Positions 3,697 through 29,320 of a stretch of 29,462 bases of DNA are shown piece after piece (the stretch's first letter is position 1; every line of letters starts with the position of its first letter). The notes below the pieces were generated by a model. The model was not told the DNA's origin and ran no database searches. It saw only the letters and a program-made list of their open reading frames with translations. The stretch is from a virus: positions 1 to 29,462 of IMG/VR virus record IMGVR_UViG_3300025282_000167; one strand, given 5' to 3'. The translations under genes were made by a program, and so were the position numbers.

Positions 3697-4548
3697 ATGC
3701 ATAATTATACACTAAGAAAAGGAAATGAAGGCCAAGAAGTAAAAAGACTTCAGAAACGTCTTTTAACGCGGTCAATCGATGGTAAGTTCGGCCCAAAAAC
3801 AGAAAAAGCCGTCAAAGATTGCCAACAACACAACAACTTAGCAGTCGACGGTATAGCTGGCCCACAAACATTAGGCCATCTAGGGATCGAAGTACTTTAC
3901 GGTCTCGATGTTAGTGCATGGAATGGCAGCAGAATTAATTGGGCAAAAGTAAGCAAAACAAATGTTAAATTTTGCTGGGTTAAAGTTTCAGAAGGACAAA
4001 CACATGTGAATCGTGGGTTTGCTGATAAATTTCAAGGTGCAAGAGACAATGGTTTAGCTGTTGGGGGTTATCATTTTGGTCGACCAGATCATAATAAGTA
4101 TGACGATCCCCTTGTTGATGCAGAAAAAGAAGCGACTCATTTTTTAAAGACGGTTTCCAAAGTTGGTGTACAGTCTGGCGATCTTTTACCTGTCTTAGAC
4201 GTTGAAAAAGGCATGAAAACCGATGACCAATACAATGTGGATTGGTGCTTAAAATGGCTTGAAGAGGTCGAGAAAGAGCTTGGTGTTAAGCCTGTTGTTT
4301 ATAGCGCTAAATGGGCATGGGATCTTTATCTAAGAAAAGCAAACAAGGCGGACTTAGAAAAGTTAACAGAATATCCAATTTGGTGGGCTTCCTACAATAA
4401 AGGTGTCGAGCCAAAAAGAAATGTTCGAGGCTGGACAGAATGGGATGTTTGGCAGCATGGAAGTAAAGGAGTTGTATCTGGAATTCCAGGAAAAGTTGAC
4501 GTAAACTGGATGGCAGGTGGTCAATTATCAAACTTAACAGTGCCCTAA
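3697..4548 (+). CDS. Endolysin: peptidoglycan-binding domain plus GH25 lysozyme
   Basis: Cell-wall hydrolase for host lysis, 283 residues. Residues 1-62 form a peptidoglycan-binding type 1 domain (LRKGNEGQEVKRLQKRL, then SIDGKFGPKTEKAVKDCQ and DGIAGPQTL). From residue 68 comes a glycoside hydrolase family 25 (N-acetylmuramidase) domain. GLDVSAWNG places the first Asp at 71, and LPVLDVEKG gives D168 and E170 as the catalytic acidic pair. GGYHFGRP and VDVNW near the C-terminus are also typical. There is no signal peptide, so a holin is expected to release it. The start is ATG 3697 with AAAGGAG upstream; an earlier in-frame TTG has no SD. Confidence 0.93.
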   Translation: MHNYTLRKGNEGQEVKRLQKRLLTRSIDGKFGPKTEKAVKDCQQHNNLAVDGIAGPQTLGHLGIEVLYGLDVSAWNGSRINWAKVSKTNVKFCWVKVSEGQTHVNRGFADKFQGARDNGLAVGGYHFGRPDHNKYDDPLVDAEKEATHFLKTVSKVGVQSGDLLPVLDVEKGMKTDDQYNVDWCLKWLEEVEKELGVKPVVYSAKWAWDLYLRKANKADLEKLTEYPIWWASYNKGVEPKRNVRGWTEWDVWQHGSKGVVSGIPGKVDVNWMAGGQLSNLTVP

Positions 4549-5350: not shown

Positions 5351-6234
5351 TGGAAAAAGGTTCACAAAACTCACATTCTTTTCATTTGGCTGGAATTGTC
5401 CCAGTTGCTGGCCAAAAATTAGATTTTAATTTTCCCTGGCACGATTGTTTGCAGCCAATTGGTAAAAATTATTTAGCAATCGAAAGAGCAGTTTTAGAGT
5501 GTGCATATGCAGGATGTGAAACGATATGGGTTGTTTGTCATGATGACATGCAGCCATTAATTAAATATCGCTTAGGAGAATATATATTAGATCCTGTCTT
5601 TTTACAAAGAAAAAGATTTAGTTCCGATGGCGAACAATATGAAATTCCGATACATTATGTACCAATACATCCAAAAGATAGAGATAAAAGAGATTGTTTA
5701 GGTTGGAGCGTCTTGTATGGCGCTTTGACTGCTTATTGGTTAAGTAAAACAATTAGCAAGTGGCTTATACCGGATAGATTTTATGCAGCTTTTCCCTATG
5801 GAATATATGATCCAAAATTAATACAACCTTACAGAAAACAAATATCTAGCAAAACTCCATTTTATATTGAATACTCCAATCAAAATATTAAAGACAATCA
5901 GTATCTAGGATTTACATTTGATGGAGAAGATTTTAAAAAATGCCGCGGATATTTAAGGAAAGAGGGCACGGGAGAGTTTTTTGGGTACGATACCGATAGA
6001 ATACCCATTGAAGAAAGATGGTCCGCTCGCTTTTTTGAGCTTGACAAAGTTTTTAAACATGTTAATATAGATGGTGCCAATGCATTAAAGGTGCCTTGGT
6101 ATTACAAGATCGATAGCTGGGAGGGTCTTTGTGATTTTTTTGGTTCTAAAGAGTGTAAAACACTTGACAAACCCTATGAGATGGGATATCATAGATTTAA
6201 CCCAGTTGGAATAGACAACTATGAAGAAAACTAA
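5350..6234 (+). CDS. Putative GT-A-fold nucleotidyltransferase-like protein
   Basis: A 294-residue protein whose first 75 residues resemble sugar-phosphate nucleotidyltransferases. LAGIVPVAGQKLDFNFPWHD (13-32) takes the place of the usual nucleotide-binding loop, followed by LQPIGKNYLAIERAVLECAY and a strand ETIWVVCHDDM (57-67). This is the typical order strand, loop, helix, then strand with acidic residues. The classic GxGTRxxP signature is not present, so activity is uncertain and it may be a divergent or non-catalytic member. It overlaps the upstream gene by one base and dnaE by 14 bases, placing it in the same operon. Substrate and pathway are unknown. Confidence 0.55.
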   Translation: MEKGSQNSHSFHLAGIVPVAGQKLDFNFPWHDCLQPIGKNYLAIERAVLECAYAGCETIWVVCHDDMQPLIKYRLGEYILDPVFLQRKRFSSDGEQYEIPIHYVPIHPKDRDKRDCLGWSVLYGALTAYWLSKTISKWLIPDRFYAAFPYGIYDPKLIQPYRKQISSKTPFYIEYSNQNIKDNQYLGFTFDGEDFKKCRGYLRKEGTGEFFGYDTDRIPIEERWSARFFELDKVFKHVNIDGANALKVPWYYKIDSWEGLCDFFGSKECKTLDKPYEMGYHRFNPVGIDNYEEN

Positions 6235-9200
6235 TATACCTTTTGTTAATCTACACGCACACAGCGTAGCTGGGTCGCCATTTGACGGCTTAGGATATCC
6301 GCAAGAACACATGGATTTTGCTTATGAAAATGGCTGTGATGCACTAGCTTTAACAGATCATGGTAATATGAATGGCATGGCCTATCAAGTATTGCATGCT
6401 AAAAAAATGCAGAAAGAAGGCAAGAACTTTAAACCCATTTTTGGTGTCGAAGCATATTTTTTGCCTAGTTTAGATAAGTGGAGAAAAGAGCGCGACAAAG
6501 CAAAAGCTGATAAAAAGAATAAGATTAAAGAAGATGCCCAATCAGGCATAACGATTGAAGATGAAGCTTCATCTAAAAAGGCTCTAAAAAATATTCTTAA
6601 CCGTCGTAGACATATTATTCTTTTGGCCCAAAATCAAACTGGTTTAAAAAACATTTTTCAACTGGTATCAAAATCTTTTTTAAAGGAAAACTTTTACAGG
6701 TTCCCTAGAGTTGACTATCGACTACTTAAAGAACACAACGAAGGCGTAATCGCTGCCTCTGCATGCCTAGGCGGCGTGTACGCCGGAAATTATTGGGAGA
6801 ATAAAGAATACGGTGAAGATGCTGTCATCGAAGTTATGCGAGAAACCACTCGTAAAATGCTGGAAATTTTCAAAGATCGTTGGTATGGAGAGCTTCAATG
6901 GAATAATATCCCAGATCAACACAGGTTAAATAAATATATAATTCAACTTCATTATGAATTTGGTATACCTTTAATCTCAACTGCTGATAGCCATTATCCT
7001 AATCCAAACGCCTGGAAAGATCGAGAACTATATAGGAAATTGGGGTGGCTTGGCAAGGGCGCTTTACCTGATTGGGCAACAACAGAATTGCCCGAGGGTA
7101 TAGAAGAAATCGGGTATGAACTATATCCTAAAAACGGCGACGAAATGTGGGAGTCATATAAATCATACTCTAAGAAATGTGGTGTAAAGTATAATGATGA
7201 GCTAATCAGACAGTCTATCGAAGAAACATACAATATTGCTCATAATAGAATAGAAGATTTCTCACCAGATAATAAAGTTAGACTACCAGATTTTGTTGTA
7301 CCGGCTGGAATGACAGCAACTCAGGCATTGACTAGAATTTGTATTGATCAGCTAAGAGCGAAAGAGCTTCATCACAATGAAGAATATATTGTCCGCTTGA
7401 AAGAAGAATTAGAAGTCATCGATGATCGAGGTTTTAGTAAATATTTTCTTACAATGAATGCAATTGCCGACAAGGCGAACAAAATTCAATTGACCGGTCC
7501 AGGTCGCGGATCGGCTGCTGGATCGTTAGTTGCGTACGTCCTTGGAATTACACAAATAAATCCAATTAAGTATAACCTTCTTTTTTCAAGATTTCTTCGG
7601 AGAGATACAGAAGACTATCCAGACATTGATTATGATGTTTCGGATCCAATGGAGCTGAAAGAATTATTAATTGAAGAATGGGGCCCGGGCACTGTGGTTC
7701 CAATTTCTAACTTTAATACTTTGCAGCTCCGTTCTTTGATTAAAGATATTTCAAAACTTTATGGAGTGCCGTTTACAGAAGTTAATCCTGTAACATCGCG
7801 AATGATGAAAGAGGCGATGCCGCTGGCAAAAAAGAAACACGAAATAAAATCAGGAGTTTATGTACCAACATTCGAAGAAGTGATGGAATATTCAGATTCA
7901 CTTAAGAAATTCTTGGCCAAATATCCGCAGATTGCGAACCATATTAATGTTTTATATGGGCAAACACGCTCTGTGTCTAGACATGCAGGCGGAGTTGTGA
8001 TTGGAGAAGATCTTGATAAGTATATGCCTTTGATTAATAGTGGAGGAGTTACACAAACTCCTTGGTCCGAAGGACAAAACGTTCGACAGCTAGAGCCTAT
8101 GGGCTTTATTAAATTTGATATTCTTGGATTATCTACCCTCAAGATGATCGAAGGTGCTATTAGTCACATATTAAAACGACATCATGGCATTGTAAATCCG
8201 ACATTTGAAGAAATACAAGAGTATTATGATAATAACTTACATCCAGATAAGATTGATTTAAAAGATCAAAAGGTATACACAAACGTATTCCACAAAGGTA
8301 AGTGGGCAGGAATATTCCAGTTTACAGAAGCGGGAGCACAAAAGTTTTGTCAAAAAGCAGAACCAAAGAATATAATTAATATTGCTGCCATCACTGCTAT
8401 TTATCGCCCGGGCCCTTTAAGTGCTGATGTGGATAAATTATATGTTGAGGCCAAGAATAGCCCAGGCAAGATAAAATATGGCAATGACATTGTAAAGGAT
8501 ATTACAAAAGAAACATATGGTTTTCTCATTTTTCAGGAACAAATTGCCTTGTTGGCACATAAGCTTGGTAAAGATTTTAGTTTAGATGAGGGCAACAAAC
8601 TTCGCAAACTTTTAACTAAAAAAGGAACTGGTGAAGTTGTAGAACAGAAGAACAAATTAAAAGTTAAGTTTGTTGAAGGTTGCACTGAAAAAGGCCTATC
8701 TAAAAGTTGGGCAAACAAAATGTGGCAAAAGTTTGAGTTCTTTTCAGGGTACGGTTTCAACAAGTCGCATGCAGTATCTTATTCAATTATTTCGTATCAA
8801 TGTGCTTGGTTATTTAATTATTATCCTGCTGAGTGGATAGCCGCATTCCTGGATAAAGAACCAGAAAGTAGAAAAGAAAAGGCAATTAGTTTAGCAGAGA
8901 GATTTGGTTTTAAAATTCAACGGGTTGATATTAATAATTCTGGGGTAGTGTGGGAAATCGACCAAGATAATAAAACTCTTATACAACCGTTAACTTCGTT
9001 AAAAGGTTTGGGAAGTAAAGCGATTGAACAGATTATTAACAATCGCCCTTTTAACACAATAGAAGAGCTTTTATTTAATGAAGAGATTATTTATTCTAAA
9101 TTAAACAAAAAAGCTCTTGATGCTCTAACAAGAAGCGGTGCTGTTGGTAGCCTAGTCGACGAACGCTTTTCTGGCCTCAAACACTTTTGGTCAGCCGTTG

Positions 9201-10124: not shown

Positions 10125-10219
10125 TGACCCCTTCTTGTTCCTGGTTGCAAACAAAAATATTCATAATTTCTAGCTTGATATTCATGCTTGTATATTACAT
10201 GATAGGAGACGAAAAATAA
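10124..10219 (+). CDS. Small single-pass membrane peptide
   Basis: A 31-residue open frame starting in the TAATG overlap with dut and ending one base before the next gene. Residues 11-27 (KIFIISSLIFMLVYYMI) form one hydrophobic segment long enough to span a membrane, followed by the charged tail GDEK. The SD of the next gene (ATAGGAGAC) lies inside its last codons, so translation of the two may be linked. Function unknown. It could be a holin or spanin accessory or an envelope-targeted effector, but nothing in the sequence decides this. Confidence 0.5.
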   Translation: MTPSCSWLQTKIFIISSLIFMLVYYMIGDEK

Positions 10220-25872: not shown

Positions 25873-27117
25873 ATGATTGAGACAAAGAAAACTTTCGACT
25901 TGAACATGCACGTTGCGCGACTCCTTATGGATGAGCCCTTCTTTGCGGCTCTTTCACGTCGCATTAACAAGGTGTCGTCCACCTTGTTGCCAACTGCTGG
26001 TGTACGTGTCAATCCTGATACAGCACAATTCGAGATGCTCTACAATCCTGAATTCTTTTTGAAGCTGAACGATGCTGCGCGGAAAGATGTTCTAAAGCAC
26101 GAGTTTTATCACTTGGTCTTTGAGCATGTTACTAGCCGCAAACCAGAAGGCATTAACCCGCTTACTTGGAATTTCGCCACAGACCTTGCAATTAATTCGC
26201 ACCTGAAGAATCTTCCTGGAGGTTGCCTAAAGCCAGGGCAAGCCCCCTTTGCTGATTTTCAATCAGGTCTTTCCGCTGAAGCATATTTGAGCCTTCTTCA
26301 GAAAAAACAGGAAGACGAAGACAAAGGAAAAGATAATAATTCTGACGATGGCGAGAAAAGCGACGAAAAAGATGGTGGTTCTGGTAATAGTGCAGAAGGC
26401 AACGAAAATGGAGAGGGTTTTGACAACGGTCAATTTGATTCTCATGAAGGTTGGGGCACTGCTGATTCTACCACTGAGGAGATTGCAAAAGAGCGCCTGA
26501 AGGAATTTATTAAAAAAGCAGCAGAAGAAGCAAACAAAAGTAATAATGGTTGGGGCAGCATACCTGCTAATTGTCGGCGCAACATTATTGACCGATTGAA
26601 AACCCACGTAGACTGGAAAAAGGTTTTGCGATATTTTGTTAAGACAAGTACGCGCGCCAATAAGCGAAACACTGTCAAGCGTTTGAATAAACGCTATGCT
26701 TACATTCATGCTGGCAGCAAAGTGACTCGCCGCGCCAATATTGCTATTAGTATTGACCAGTCTGGCTCCGTTGACGACGAGATGCTGAAGGCGTTTTTCA
26801 GCGAGTTGAATAAGCTTGCAAAGCTTGCCTCTTTCACTGTCATTCCTTTCGACACACGAGTCGATGAATCTCTTGTTTATGAATGGAAACACGGTCAGAA
26901 CCACAAAACAGAGCGTGTTATGTGCGGTGGAACGTGCTTCAATGCTCCGACTGAATACGTAAACAAACACGGTTTCGATGGTCACCTAATCTTGACAGAC
27001 CTCATGGCACCGAAGCCCAAAGCATCGAAATGCCAACGCATGTGGATGACTACGAAGTACTATGCAAAACACCCGTACTTTAAAACCAATGAGCGTGTTT
27101 TGGCAATTGACGTGTAA
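25873..27117 (+). CDS. Metallopeptidase-like / VWA-domain protein (DUF2201-like)
   Basis: A 414-residue protein in three parts. The N-terminal domain carries HEFYH (H76, E77, H80), a zinc HExxH motif, followed by FATDLAINSHL as in DUF2201 proteins. Residues about 140-200 form an acidic, Gly/Asn-rich linker. The C-terminal VWA-like domain has the metal-site residues DQSGS (D295, S297, S299), T354 in GGTCFN and D376 in LTDL. Proteins of this design are usual partners of MoxR ATPases. Peptidase activity is possible but often unproven in the family. The start at 25873 has no SD, and the upstream promoter predicts a leaderless mRNA. It is separated from the AAA+ gene by a terminator. Confidence 0.85.
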   Translation: MIETKKTFDLNMHVARLLMDEPFFAALSRRINKVSSTLLPTAGVRVNPDTAQFEMLYNPEFFLKLNDAARKDVLKHEFYHLVFEHVTSRKPEGINPLTWNFATDLAINSHLKNLPGGCLKPGQAPFADFQSGLSAEAYLSLLQKKQEDEDKGKDNNSDDGEKSDEKDGGSGNSAEGNENGEGFDNGQFDSHEGWGTADSTTEEIAKERLKEFIKKAAEEANKSNNGWGSIPANCRRNIIDRLKTHVDWKKVLRYFVKTSTRANKRNTVKRLNKRYAYIHAGSKVTRRANIAISIDQSGSVDDEMLKAFFSELNKLAKLASFTVIPFDTRVDESLVYEWKHGQNHKTERVMCGGTCFNAPTEYVNKHGFDGHLILTDLMAPKPKASKCQRMWMTTKYYAKHPYFKTNERVLAIDV

Positions 27118-27162: not shown

Positions 27163-27273
27163 ATGAACGATAGTACAAAAGATTGGTTGACAGCTATAAC
27201 AATTGTGACAGGTGTTTACGGCGTAGTCATTGTTTTGCTGGCAATCGGCGCATTTTATTTGCTGCCGTATTAA
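27163..27273 (+). CDS. Small single-pass membrane peptide
   Basis: A 36-residue frame with a short polar start (MNDSTKDW) and one long hydrophobic helix (AITIVTGVYGVVIVLLAIGA) ending FYLLPY. The SD is ATGAGGAAAC. Upstream, TTGACA (27134) with ATATGA keeps the spacing of the repeated promoters, but the -10 is GGAAAC instead of GATAAT, so the promoter looks decayed or rebuilt as an SD. Function unknown; a membrane-active early peptide is plausible. Confidence 0.55.
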   Translation: MNDSTKDWLTAITIVTGVYGVVIVLLAIGAFYLLPY

Positions 27274-27281
27274 AAAACTTC

Positions 27282-27310
27282 TTGACAAATCCCCCAAAAT
27301 TTGAGATAAT
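27282..27310 (+). promoter_or_regulatory. Repeated early-type promoter, copy 5 (drives the RNA)
   Basis: TTGACA (27282-27287), 17 bases, GATAAT (27305-27310), with AAAATTTGAGATAATATATATAG as in other copies when read in parts. No coding gene follows within 240 bases. Transcription should start near 27317 and run into the structured RNA. Confidence 0.87.
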
Positions 27311-27316
27311 ATATAT

Positions 27317-27530
27317 AGTGGAGATGGAGGTTTAGCGACTTTCCTGACCCGCTCTTTGAAAATCCGCGAGTACCAGACTGGCATGTTCAGAATATACGCC
27401 GTAGGACTGAACCGGGTTGATACCCTGTTATTTAGTCAGAGCAGAATCGGTGGGAGTGGTATCCTACTGCGTGAGTGCAACTCTCACTACGGATGAAAGG
27501 CTCATGCTGACCTCGCGGATTTTCTTTTCT
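27317..27530 (+). ncRNA. Structured non-coding RNA of unknown class
   Basis: Transcribed from a consensus promoter, about 210 nt, with no SD-supported frame. A perfect 13-pair helix closes it: 27358-27370 with 27512-27524. Inside are GCAUG/CAUGC (27381-27385 with 27503-27507), UUCAG/CUGAA (27386-27390 with 27407-27411), GGGU/ACCC (27414-27417 with 27422-27425), an eight-pair hairpin (27448-27455 with 27462-27469) and GUGAG/CUCAC (27471-27475 with 27483-27487). CCGUAG in a loop (27399-27404) could pair with CUACGG (27487-27492), a pseudoknot. A U-rich tail (27520-27529) follows the closing helix and may end transcription. I cannot match it to tRNA, tmRNA, 6S, RNase P, group I intron or known riboswitches. 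Confidence 0.65.
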
Positions 27531-27557
27531 ATTATCTACTGGAGTTAAAAACTTGGG

Positions 27558-27788
27558 ATACAAGACTTAAAGATTGGCGACAAAGTTTTTGATAAAGACA
27601 CACAACAGTGGGGAATCGTTACGGATATTCGCCCAACAACGTTTTGGGTGCTTTGGTCTGTGACCGGGAAAGTAATGGCAACTCCCTGGTTTTTGGCTGA
27701 AGAGGCATTAAGGACCGGTGACTGGAAAGTCAGCCCGCATCAAGAAATAACTTTAATCGACCCAAGAAAAAAACGAAAAACCTCTTGA
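27558..27788 (+). CDS. VGDLV-family protein with a non-standard or missing start
   Basis: The frame encodes a family member: DLKIGDKVFDKDTQQWGIVT, then TTFWVLWSVTGKV and a basic end RKKRKTS. No ATG, GTG or TTG in frame precedes the KIGD motif. The frame opens after TAA at 27546-27548, and the earliest plausible starts are ATA 27558 or ATT 27573. GGAG (27541-27544) would serve TTG 27553 in a different frame, which stops after five codons. The gene may use a rare start, be joined to the RNA upstream by processing, or be broken at its 5' end. Its TGA overlaps the -35 of the next promoter. Confidence 0.45.
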   Translation: MQDLKIGDKVFDKDTQQWGIVTDIRPTTFWVLWSVTGKVMATPWFLAEEALRTGDWKVSPHQEITLIDPRKKRKTS

Positions 27789-27925: not shown

Positions 27926-28420
27926 ATGAAACAAAACGATGTCCTAATGAAAAAGTGGTGTTTTGGTACAGGTCGAAGTAAAGTCCGTGAAGAAGCGGTT
28001 ATGAACGAAAACGGCGAACTTCAAACCTACCGAACTTATCCCAAATACCGTACCATTGTTTTCAAAGTCGAGAAAGCCACAAAAAAAGACAACCAATGGC
28101 ATGTCGAAGGTAAACAATATTCTTCTTTGAATGGCAAACCCAAGACAACCAAACTAGTTCTTAACGAAAAAGCTGGATTGTATCGGGTTGACGGTCAGAA
28201 GCGTCCATTTCTTCAAATTGAAAATCCCGGTCAGTTGACCGAAGAAGGTCTGCCGCCTGTTGGAAGTCTTATTACAGTAAACAAAAAACATGCTATCGTT
28301 ACCGCAGTCGGACGAAATGAGTTGACCGTATTTGTCAACAACAAGATTCAAAAAATTGCTTGTCGTCCTGGCACAATTAAATGGCACTCCGACAAGATTC
28401 TCGCCAGCGCAGTAAAATGA
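27926..28420 (+). CDS. Hypothetical protein with a C-terminal barrel-like segment
   Basis: A 164-residue basic protein. The N-terminal part has MKKWCFGTGRSKVREEAVMN and YRTIVFKVEKATKKDNQWHV. The C-terminal third, PVGSLITVNKKHAIVTAVGR and ELTVFVNNKIQKI, echoes the VGDLV pattern and may be a divergent barrel. ATG 27926 is the first methionine codon; an earlier in-frame TTG would read through the leader peptide in another frame. No SD stands before it, so coupling with the leader peptide is likely. It ends in an ATGA overlap with the first gene of the array. Function unknown. Confidence 0.6.
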   Translation: MKQNDVLMKKWCFGTGRSKVREEAVMNENGELQTYRTYPKYRTIVFKVEKATKKDNQWHVEGKQYSSLNGKPKTTKLVLNEKAGLYRVDGQKRPFLQIENPGQLTEEGLPPVGSLITVNKKHAIVTAVGRNELTVFVNNKIQKIACRPGTIKWHSDKILASAVK

Positions 28421-28617
28421 AGGTAGGCGACTTGGTAAAAATCATAAAAGCAAGAATAGGCGTCCCCGCTGACTCAGTTGGGTTGATAATCGATTCTTTT
28501 CTGAGCGCACCCCGAAAGTGGCTGATTTACGAAATACAACTTTGTGGTGGCAAGCGTAACGGCAAAATAGTCAGACGCCTCGCAGAAGACTTGGAGACAA
28601 TCAGTGCAAGTCGGTGA
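28417..28617 (+). CDS. VGDLV-family cassette 1
   Basis: A 66-residue protein: MKVGDLVKIIKARIGVPADS, VGLIIDSFLSAPRKWLIY, EIQLCGGKRNG and a C-terminal ETISASR. It opens the tandem array. The ATG overlaps the preceding stop as ATGA; an upstream in-frame ATG (28381) lies deep inside the previous gene and would disrupt the family N-terminus. The last 14 bases overlap cassette 2, and TTGGAGACAATC in its ETI region holds that gene's SD. Probably a small SH3/KOW-like barrel. Confidence 0.72.
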   Translation: MKVGDLVKIIKARIGVPADSVGLIIDSFLSAPRKWLIYEIQLCGGKRNGKIVRRLAEDLETISASR

Positions 28618-28795
28618 TTTAGTGCAGCTTTTAGACGTGCACGGAAAACCAGAACCGTTAACAGGGATTATTACAGGGTTCACAAACGGCGGATTCAGAA
28701 AAGGACTAGTCAAAGTGCACTGGTCTAATGGGTTCAACCACCGCGATGCTGCATGGCAGTGGGGGCGATTGAAGGTGATAAATGCAAGTCGGTGA
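28604..28795 (+). CDS. VGDLV-family cassette 2
   Basis: A 63-residue protein starting at GTG 28604: MQVGDLVQLLDVHGKPEPLT, GIITGFTNGGFRKGLVKVHW, then WGRLKVINASR. A G-rich loop (TNGGFRKG) lies between the barrel strands. GGAG seven to eight bases before GTG lies in the previous gene's codons. The 14-base overlap with cassette 3 again places TGA inside Gly-Asp. GAAGGTGATAA at its end is the SD for cassette 3. Confidence 0.72.
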   Translation: MQVGDLVQLLDVHGKPEPLTGIITGFTNGGFRKGLVKVHWSNGFNHRDAAWQWGRLKVINASR

Positions 28796-28946
28796 TTTAG
28801 TGAAATATTCCTACCACAAAAAAGTAGGCACAGGTATTATTGTGGGCTTTGATAAAGAAAATGACCCCATAGTCAGGGATAATGCCTCTGGAGTTGTTTG
28901 TGCGTCATGGCGCAAAAAGGTGGAGGTTATCAGTGCAAGTCGGTGA
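28782..28946 (+). CDS. VGDLV-family cassette 3
   Basis: A 54-residue protein, the only member of the dense array with an ATG at the joint: MQVGDLVKYSYHKKVGTGII, VGFDKENDPIVRD, then VCASWRKKVEVISASR. It is the shortest member. AAGGTG before the ATG and GGAGG at its own end (28922-28926, for the next GTG) lie in coding sequence. The overlap with each neighbour is 14 bases. Confidence 0.7.
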   Translation: MQVGDLVKYSYHKKVGTGIIVGFDKENDPIVRDNASGVVCASWRKKVEVISASR

Positions 28947-29112
28947 CCTAGTAACTTGGACGCAGCGTAACGAGCGACAAATTGGTATTATCGTTGCTGA
29001 CCCAGATTTCGGGCACAAGGGTGCACAATCACAATGCTGGAGTGTGGTCCACAATGGAGAAATGACAATCGCACGAGAAGAATGGCTGAAGGTGATAAGT
29101 GCAAGTCGGTGA
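28933..29112 (+). CDS. VGDLV-family cassette 4
   Basis: A 59-residue protein from GTG 28933: MQVGDLVTWTQRNERQIGII, VADPDFGHKG, QCWSVVHNGEM and EEWLKVISASR. GGAGG in the previous gene's EVIS codons is six bases from the GTG. An upstream in-frame ATG (28882) would add 17 residues from the previous gene's territory and is not preferred. It overlaps cassette 5 by 14 bases. Confidence 0.72.
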   Translation: MQVGDLVTWTQRNERQIGIIVADPDFGHKGAQSQCWSVVHNGEMTIAREEWLKVISASR

Positions 29113-29320
29113 TTTAGTTAAGTTGATTAACAACCCGTGCCAGCCGTTTGCCTCCGCGACCGGACACCCAAAAGACTTCGAGCGCGTTGGCCTAGTAATA
29201 AAGTTTACATGCCACGGCGAAAATGGACCGTTGGCCTCTGGTTGGGTCCAGTGGGCTGGCAACATGGATTGGGATTGCGAATTCATAGAGGATTTGGAGG
29301 TTATCAGTGCAACTAAATAA
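29099..29320 (+). CDS. VGDLV-family cassette 5
   Basis: A 73-residue protein from GTG 29099: MQVGDLVKLINNPCQPFASA, RVGLVIKFTCHGENG, SGWVQWAG and FIEDLEVISATK. It is the longest dense-array member, with an insertion between the first two strands. AAGGTG precedes the GTG. Its end (GTGCAACTAAATAA) overlaps the next gene by 14 bases, although that gene belongs to another family. Confidence 0.72.
   Translation: MQVGDLVKLINNPCQPFASATGHPKDFERVGLVIKFTCHGENGPLASGWVQWAGNMDWDCEFIEDLEVISATK

Follow-up and report, generated by a model that had tools for sequence, protein, structure and literature searches.

In bacteriophage lambda, boxB lies 3′ of boxA. In the rRNA (rrn) operon leader of Escherichia coli, the order is boxB hairpin, boxA, boxC and then a leader-trailer helix; boxA is both necessary and sufficient to recruit the antitermination factors, and the leader-trailer helix is essential (PMC10250234). 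The gamma-proteobacterial boxA consensus is GYTCTTTAANA (PMC5725501). Structured noncoding RNAs, some of them linked to phages, include GOLLD and ROOL, whose function is given as unknown (PMC12286853). Noncoding RNAs of phages are poorly catalogued, and for most of them the discovery came with no clue to how they are made. No report of boxA-led phage RNAs was found in the literature searched, most subscription journals lying outside the scope of that search.

The window analysed here is a 29,462-base IMG/VR fragment of a large uncultured phage, and includes an element that resembles a bacterial rRNA operon leader in the order of its parts: promoter, hairpin, the same 12-mer boxA, and a long terminal helix that encloses a folded, probably untranslated RNA. 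Unlike the rRNA operon, the phage element has a core of ~150 nt that is not ribosomal, its helix is 13 bp rather than the 25–40 of rRNA, and no boxC was recognised. The element is also like lambda nut, a phage RNA with a boxA-type element near the promoter, and HK022 put, a structured RNA near the promoter, but its hairpin is 5′ of boxA, unlike that of lambda, and its conserved core is far larger.

An rRNA-type boxA downstream of a phage promoter

A sigma-70-type promoter (TTGACA-N17-GATAAT; coordinates 27282–27310, plus strand) was found to match the consensus at 11 of 12 positions and to belong to a repeated phage set, with near-copies both upstream and downstream; the same type recurs in the related phage contig L003. 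It is followed by ~250 bases without a supported gene, in agreement with the promoter and gene-poor stretch described in an earlier sequence-only reading of this DNA, and transcription would be expected to start near position 27317. The U-rich tail described in that reading (TTTTCTTTT; 27520–27530, plus strand) is likewise present and, judged from its composition, may be a 3′ end or a weak terminator; it was not called as an intrinsic terminator in a scan of the window.

An exact rRNA boxA (CGCTCTTTGAAAA; 27350–27362, plus strand), the NusB/S10 binding motif of rRNA operons, is located 40 nt after the -10 box, between a 5′ hairpin (P0) and the terminal helix (P1), and is identical in L003. It had been overlooked in the earlier reading. 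The motif, near the expected 5′ end of the RNA, is of the GYTCTTTRANA-like type and is one position (A to G) off the gamma-proteobacterial consensus, and its 12-mer precedes bacterial 16S and 23S. The 14-mer GYTCTTTGAAAACT was found 87–224 nt upstream of the 16S 5′ end at 8 loci in 7 Paenibacillaceae genomes; in one more genome of this family it precedes 23S by 173 nt (8 genomes in all). In 10 mixed genomes boxA had no rRNA nearby, the link to rRNA being seen in the second sample, made up of Paenibacillaceae.

The exact 12-mer occurs four times in 1.02 Mb comprising the window and related phage loci. Three of the four (window, L003 and contig L041) follow a promoter matching at least 11 of 12 positions at a distance of no more than 60 nt, where 0.04 would be expected (P = 4e-6), and these three precede structured noncoding RNA; the fourth is intragenic. 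As the window and L003 are homologous, the three cases represent two independent origins. An account of boxA as a genome-wide enriched motif was rejected, since 41 related phage records contained 5 matches compared with 15 for the reversed control, indicating that position rather than number matters and that most of the 41 phages are without boxA.

A homologue in a second phage contig

Related phage contigs were found by searching with the neighbouring VWA/metallopeptidase protein, and the sole full homologue was identified in L003, a 186,398-base phage contig in which the element likewise lies downstream of the VWA gene, under a promoter of the same type. Over the stretch from boxA through the end of P1 the window and L003 share 163 of 177 bases (92%), whereas the VWA genes of the two share 68% identity in DNA and 71% in protein. 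A covariance model run against 82 related phage records and ~1.85 Mb of loci recovered L003 only, blast against phages and plasmids returned nothing or chance promoter-like matches only, and the boxA pattern led to no further homologue of the window RNA in viral contigs. Searches of viral contigs or genomes with five further DNA patterns were also set aside, as the matches outside the L003 contig were due to chance, mostly in coding sequence, and were ruled out by inspection and the covariance model.

The two sequences differ at 14 of 170 aligned core bases; all differences are transitions, and the helices of the consensus model contain 11 of them. All 49 pairs are retained (3.4 broken pairs expected under the null, P = 0.008) and two-sided changes occur in three pairs (P = 0.001), both values being optimistic, with the model chosen with both sequences in view. 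Compensatory change, which the earlier reading had proposed to look for among homologues, is thus seen in the one homologue available. The signal was destroyed when helices were slid by 1–3 columns, and a column-shuffle control was weak, with the observed covariation reached in 72 of 500 shuffles. The covariation rests on the 14 substitutions, and every structural claim is limited by n = 2 full sequences.

Predicted fold of the RNA

The fold energy of 27355–27528 has a z-score of -4.00, with none of 200 dinucleotide shuffles folding as well, and that of the L003 homologue is -4.30; for the longer span 27317–27535 the value is -2.26. The minus strand of the element gives z = -3.7 because the terminal helix is palindromic. 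The perfect 13-pair terminal helix recognised in the earlier reading, P1, was recovered (5′ strand 27358–27370, 3′ strand 27512–27524, plus strand as for all helices given here) with a pair probability of 0.99–1.00 in both the window and L003. The leader hairpin P0 (27317–27353) occupies the position of the rrn boxB and is kept in L003 with one compensatory, two-sided change and wobble changes; the first bases of boxA fall within its outer 5 bp.

Inside P1, the RNAalifold model includes P2 (27379–27385 with 27503–27509), which has a low pair probability in single-sequence folds and contains a G-U in the window that is G-C in L003, and P3, in which CCGUA (27399–27403) is paired with its nested partner UACGG (27488–27492) and is invariant. 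Three hairpins complete the core: P4 (27405–27437), with three one-sided changes that preserve the pairs; P5 (27448–27469), with one compensatory change from U-A to C-G; and P6 (27471–27487), with 5 bp, a T-loop-like 7-nt loop (UGCAACU) and two compensatory changes, G-C to A-U and A-U to G-C. A local UGGC/GCCG hairpin competes with P2 and P3 and is preferred in single-sequence folding, P5 and P6 together compete with one long hairpin, and neither P5/P6 nor P2/P3 is present in the minimum-energy fold of either sequence. P1 is a firm prediction of these models, the inner fold a more tentative one. The pseudoknot between CCGUAG and CUACGG put forward in the earlier reading was not upheld, as in the comparative model these segments form the nested helix P3, which is invariant and shows no covariation. 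That pseudoknot and the local UGGC/GCCG hairpin cannot coexist because some bases are common to both.

In L003, a degenerate repeat of the two ends of the RNA was also found in tandem, just downstream (L003 coordinates 10146–10207), and retains most of the terminal helix. Judged by eye and also on folding, this repeat can again form P1, with one compensatory change and the loss of two end pairs.

Comparison with known RNA families

No Rfam family was matched at the gathering cut-off, nor at E ≤ 10 for 27200–27620, consistent with the earlier statement that the RNA belongs to no known class. It is smaller than GOLLD and ROOL, with no Rfam match. P6 resembles a T-arm, yet ARAGORN and Rfam detected no tRNA or tmRNA, and the tRNA likeness is noted as a resemblance only. 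The terminal stem, multi-arm tRNA-like junction and T-loop-like hairpin also resemble, by eye, the YrlA bacterial Y RNA (RF02553), but RF02553 was not matched and no Ro60 (TROVE) gene was found in 21 related records, the window record being a fragment, hence a Y RNA reading was not retained. No reverse transcriptase gene, which would adjoin a retron msr-msd RNA, was evident among the Pfam- and PHROG-annotated neighbours. The proposal of a structured, promoter-driven RNA outside Rfam is supported, without its pseudoknot and also without the suggested likeness to ribozymes, for which no evidence was found.

Genes flanking the element

The neighbouring gene (25873–27117) encodes a protein with a Pfam DUF2201 metallopeptidase domain and a VWA-like domain. 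PHROG phrog_1314 and several GenBank phage records label this protein "HNH endonuclease", which looks wrong given the Pfam domains. On the 3′ side of the RNA in the window is a KIGDKV-type open frame (27563–27787) that has ATA at the position of the ATG or GTG of similar genes in the window, possibly reflecting a sequence error or an unusual start. Further downstream (28381–29320), small "MxVGDLVxL" proteins form a tandem family with a repeated GCAAGTCGGTGA common to their starts. In L003 the gene 3′ of the RNA is a different one, and a second RNA and then a strong terminator lie between it and the RNA.

Proposed function and alternatives

The explanation favoured here, which is considered somewhat better than even, is that a stable, untranslated structured RNA of ~180–210 nt is encoded here by a phage gene that has the layout of a miniature rRNA operon and uses host NusB/S10 antitermination. 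The copy of boxA in the leader suggests that the phage may borrow the rRNA-making machinery of its host for this RNA, which is probably untranslated, and we infer both Nus-factor antitermination and a stable, trans-acting product. Given the promoter match, host RNA polymerase would start at the predicted site, and the nascent boxA, identical to the rRNA motif, would bind host NusB and S10 (NusE) to form a Rho-resistant elongation complex, without which a transcript lacking ribosome cover would be stopped by Rho. The leader, tethered to polymerase, would help the distant 3′ strand of P1, a helix evident in the DNA itself, to pair with the 5′ strand in the manner of the pre-rRNA leader and trailer, and the core would then fold and be protected. 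More speculatively, the folded core would act in trans, most likely by binding a protein or the ribosome, and be made alongside tRNA-like stable RNAs. Counted against this explanation is the pairing of part of boxA in the outer helix of P0 in the window.

An alternative is that the region encodes, or leads, a small phage protein of 37–46 residues (LKIREYQTGMFRIYAVGLNR...NSHYG) and that the fold is incidental or regulates translation. The frame (27356–27496, plus strand; 46 codons from TTG, or 37 from ATG at 27383) is open in both the window and L003, and 8 of its 12 substitutions are synonymous and 4 non-synonymous, a mild bias (p = 0.026, uncorrected for the frames examined). Conserved coding in this frame was what the earlier reading had named as telling against an RNA, and the open frame and its bias are on that side, while the lack of a start signal and a stop in the middle of the element are on the other. 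No ribosome-binding site (Shine-Dalgarno) is present at TTG or ATG, the upstream start is not conserved (GTG in L003, none in the window), and tblastn, PHROGs, Pfam and viral contigs gave no relatives beyond L003. The stop precedes the end of P1 by 28 bases, both P1 and the conservation extend beyond it, and two of the non-synonymous changes are exact compensating partners in P6. In addition, 25% of 4-fold sites differ, compared with 62% in the VWA gene (p = 0.007), as expected if the RNA sequence itself is constrained. A small protein is thus considered unlikely.

The remaining alternatives accept the RNA but assign it another role. That the gene downstream differs between the window and L003 argues against a simple cis leader, and bears on two of them. 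A cis-acting role in processive antitermination, like that of lambda nut or HK022 put, giving read-through into downstream early genes, would account for the promoter-proximal hairpin and boxA, which have the rrn layout and are parts also used by lambda nut (PMC10250234), and for the lack of a strong terminator directly 3′ of the element in the window. However, the downstream gene is not conserved, a new promoter is present at 27785, the L003 transcript is closed by the strong terminator after its second RNA, and boxA by itself would be enough, so that the conserved core would have no explanation, making this role quite unlikely. A cis-regulatory leader or riboswitch for the KIGDKV-type gene (about 27563) is improbable: that gene is within ~35 nt and the alternative core folds (P5 and P6 or one long hairpin) could act as a switch, but the gene has no clear start codon, no Rfam riboswitch was matched, and the order in L003 places the second RNA, the terminator and a different gene after the RNA. 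It is very improbable that the RNA serves as a decoy, titrating NusB/S10 via boxA and lowering host rRNA synthesis in infection. Although a strong promoter drives an exact rRNA-type motif, the short motif would be enough for a decoy, the core is conserved beyond that need, and boxA shares bases with P1 and P0 and could be hidden once the RNA has folded.

BoxA and structured RNAs at other phage loci

An exact host boxA ahead of a probably untranslated phage RNA points to a rule that can be tested, namely that a promoter followed by boxA marks stable-RNA transcripts, and use of rRNA antitermination by phages for their own RNAs becomes directly testable. Applied to other phages, this rule led to tRNA arrays and to an RNA array of five modules. 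In L041, boxA is 6 nt after a promoter matching at 12 of 12 positions and leads ~600 nt (7575–8170) containing five structured modules, each closed by a strong long helix (z = -5.43), for which no Rfam match was found. Viral contigs were scanned for promoter-like DNA with CGCTCTTTGAAAA, and the matches were mostly due to chance, in genes. Among the noncoding matches, some lead tRNA arrays, in L153 (boxA at 6222, with a tRNA 32 nt on), L171 (boxA at 3996, leading ~20 tRNAs and a tmRNA) and L193 (boxA at 6440). In L162 (boxA at ~2797, minus strand) and L172, promoter and boxA are followed by long structured regions, and in L161 and L173 they instead precede small genes. An rRNA-type boxA may be a general signal of phage stable-RNA operons. 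More tentatively, and with less confidence than doubt, large uncultured phages could carry a class of "mini-rrn" operons that have captured rRNA antitermination, with promoter, hairpin and host boxA leading modular folded, stable RNAs outside known families; its members, which would accompany or replace tRNA arrays, would be one RNA in the window and L003, five in L041 and several in L162/L172.

Two further RNA families were observed at related loci. One, distinct from the window RNA and without an Rfam match, is found in L003 (10207–10372), L049 (3503–3612), L029 (10096–10200), L038 (2890–3000) and L052 (5543–5684), and is marked by the conserved sequence GTTGCGTAAGCG and by a terminator hairpin whose loop is AAGNTGGGAA, compensatory change being seen in 14 of 22 pairs across the five sequences. 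The other is promoter-driven and also has no Rfam match, and is found in L022 (3433–3555), L025 (3429–3553), L030 (3608–3758) and L020 (about 2190–2365). It has a terminal helix formed by GGGGGGTC and GACCCCCC, in which one pair changes with compensation, and a highly conserved core.
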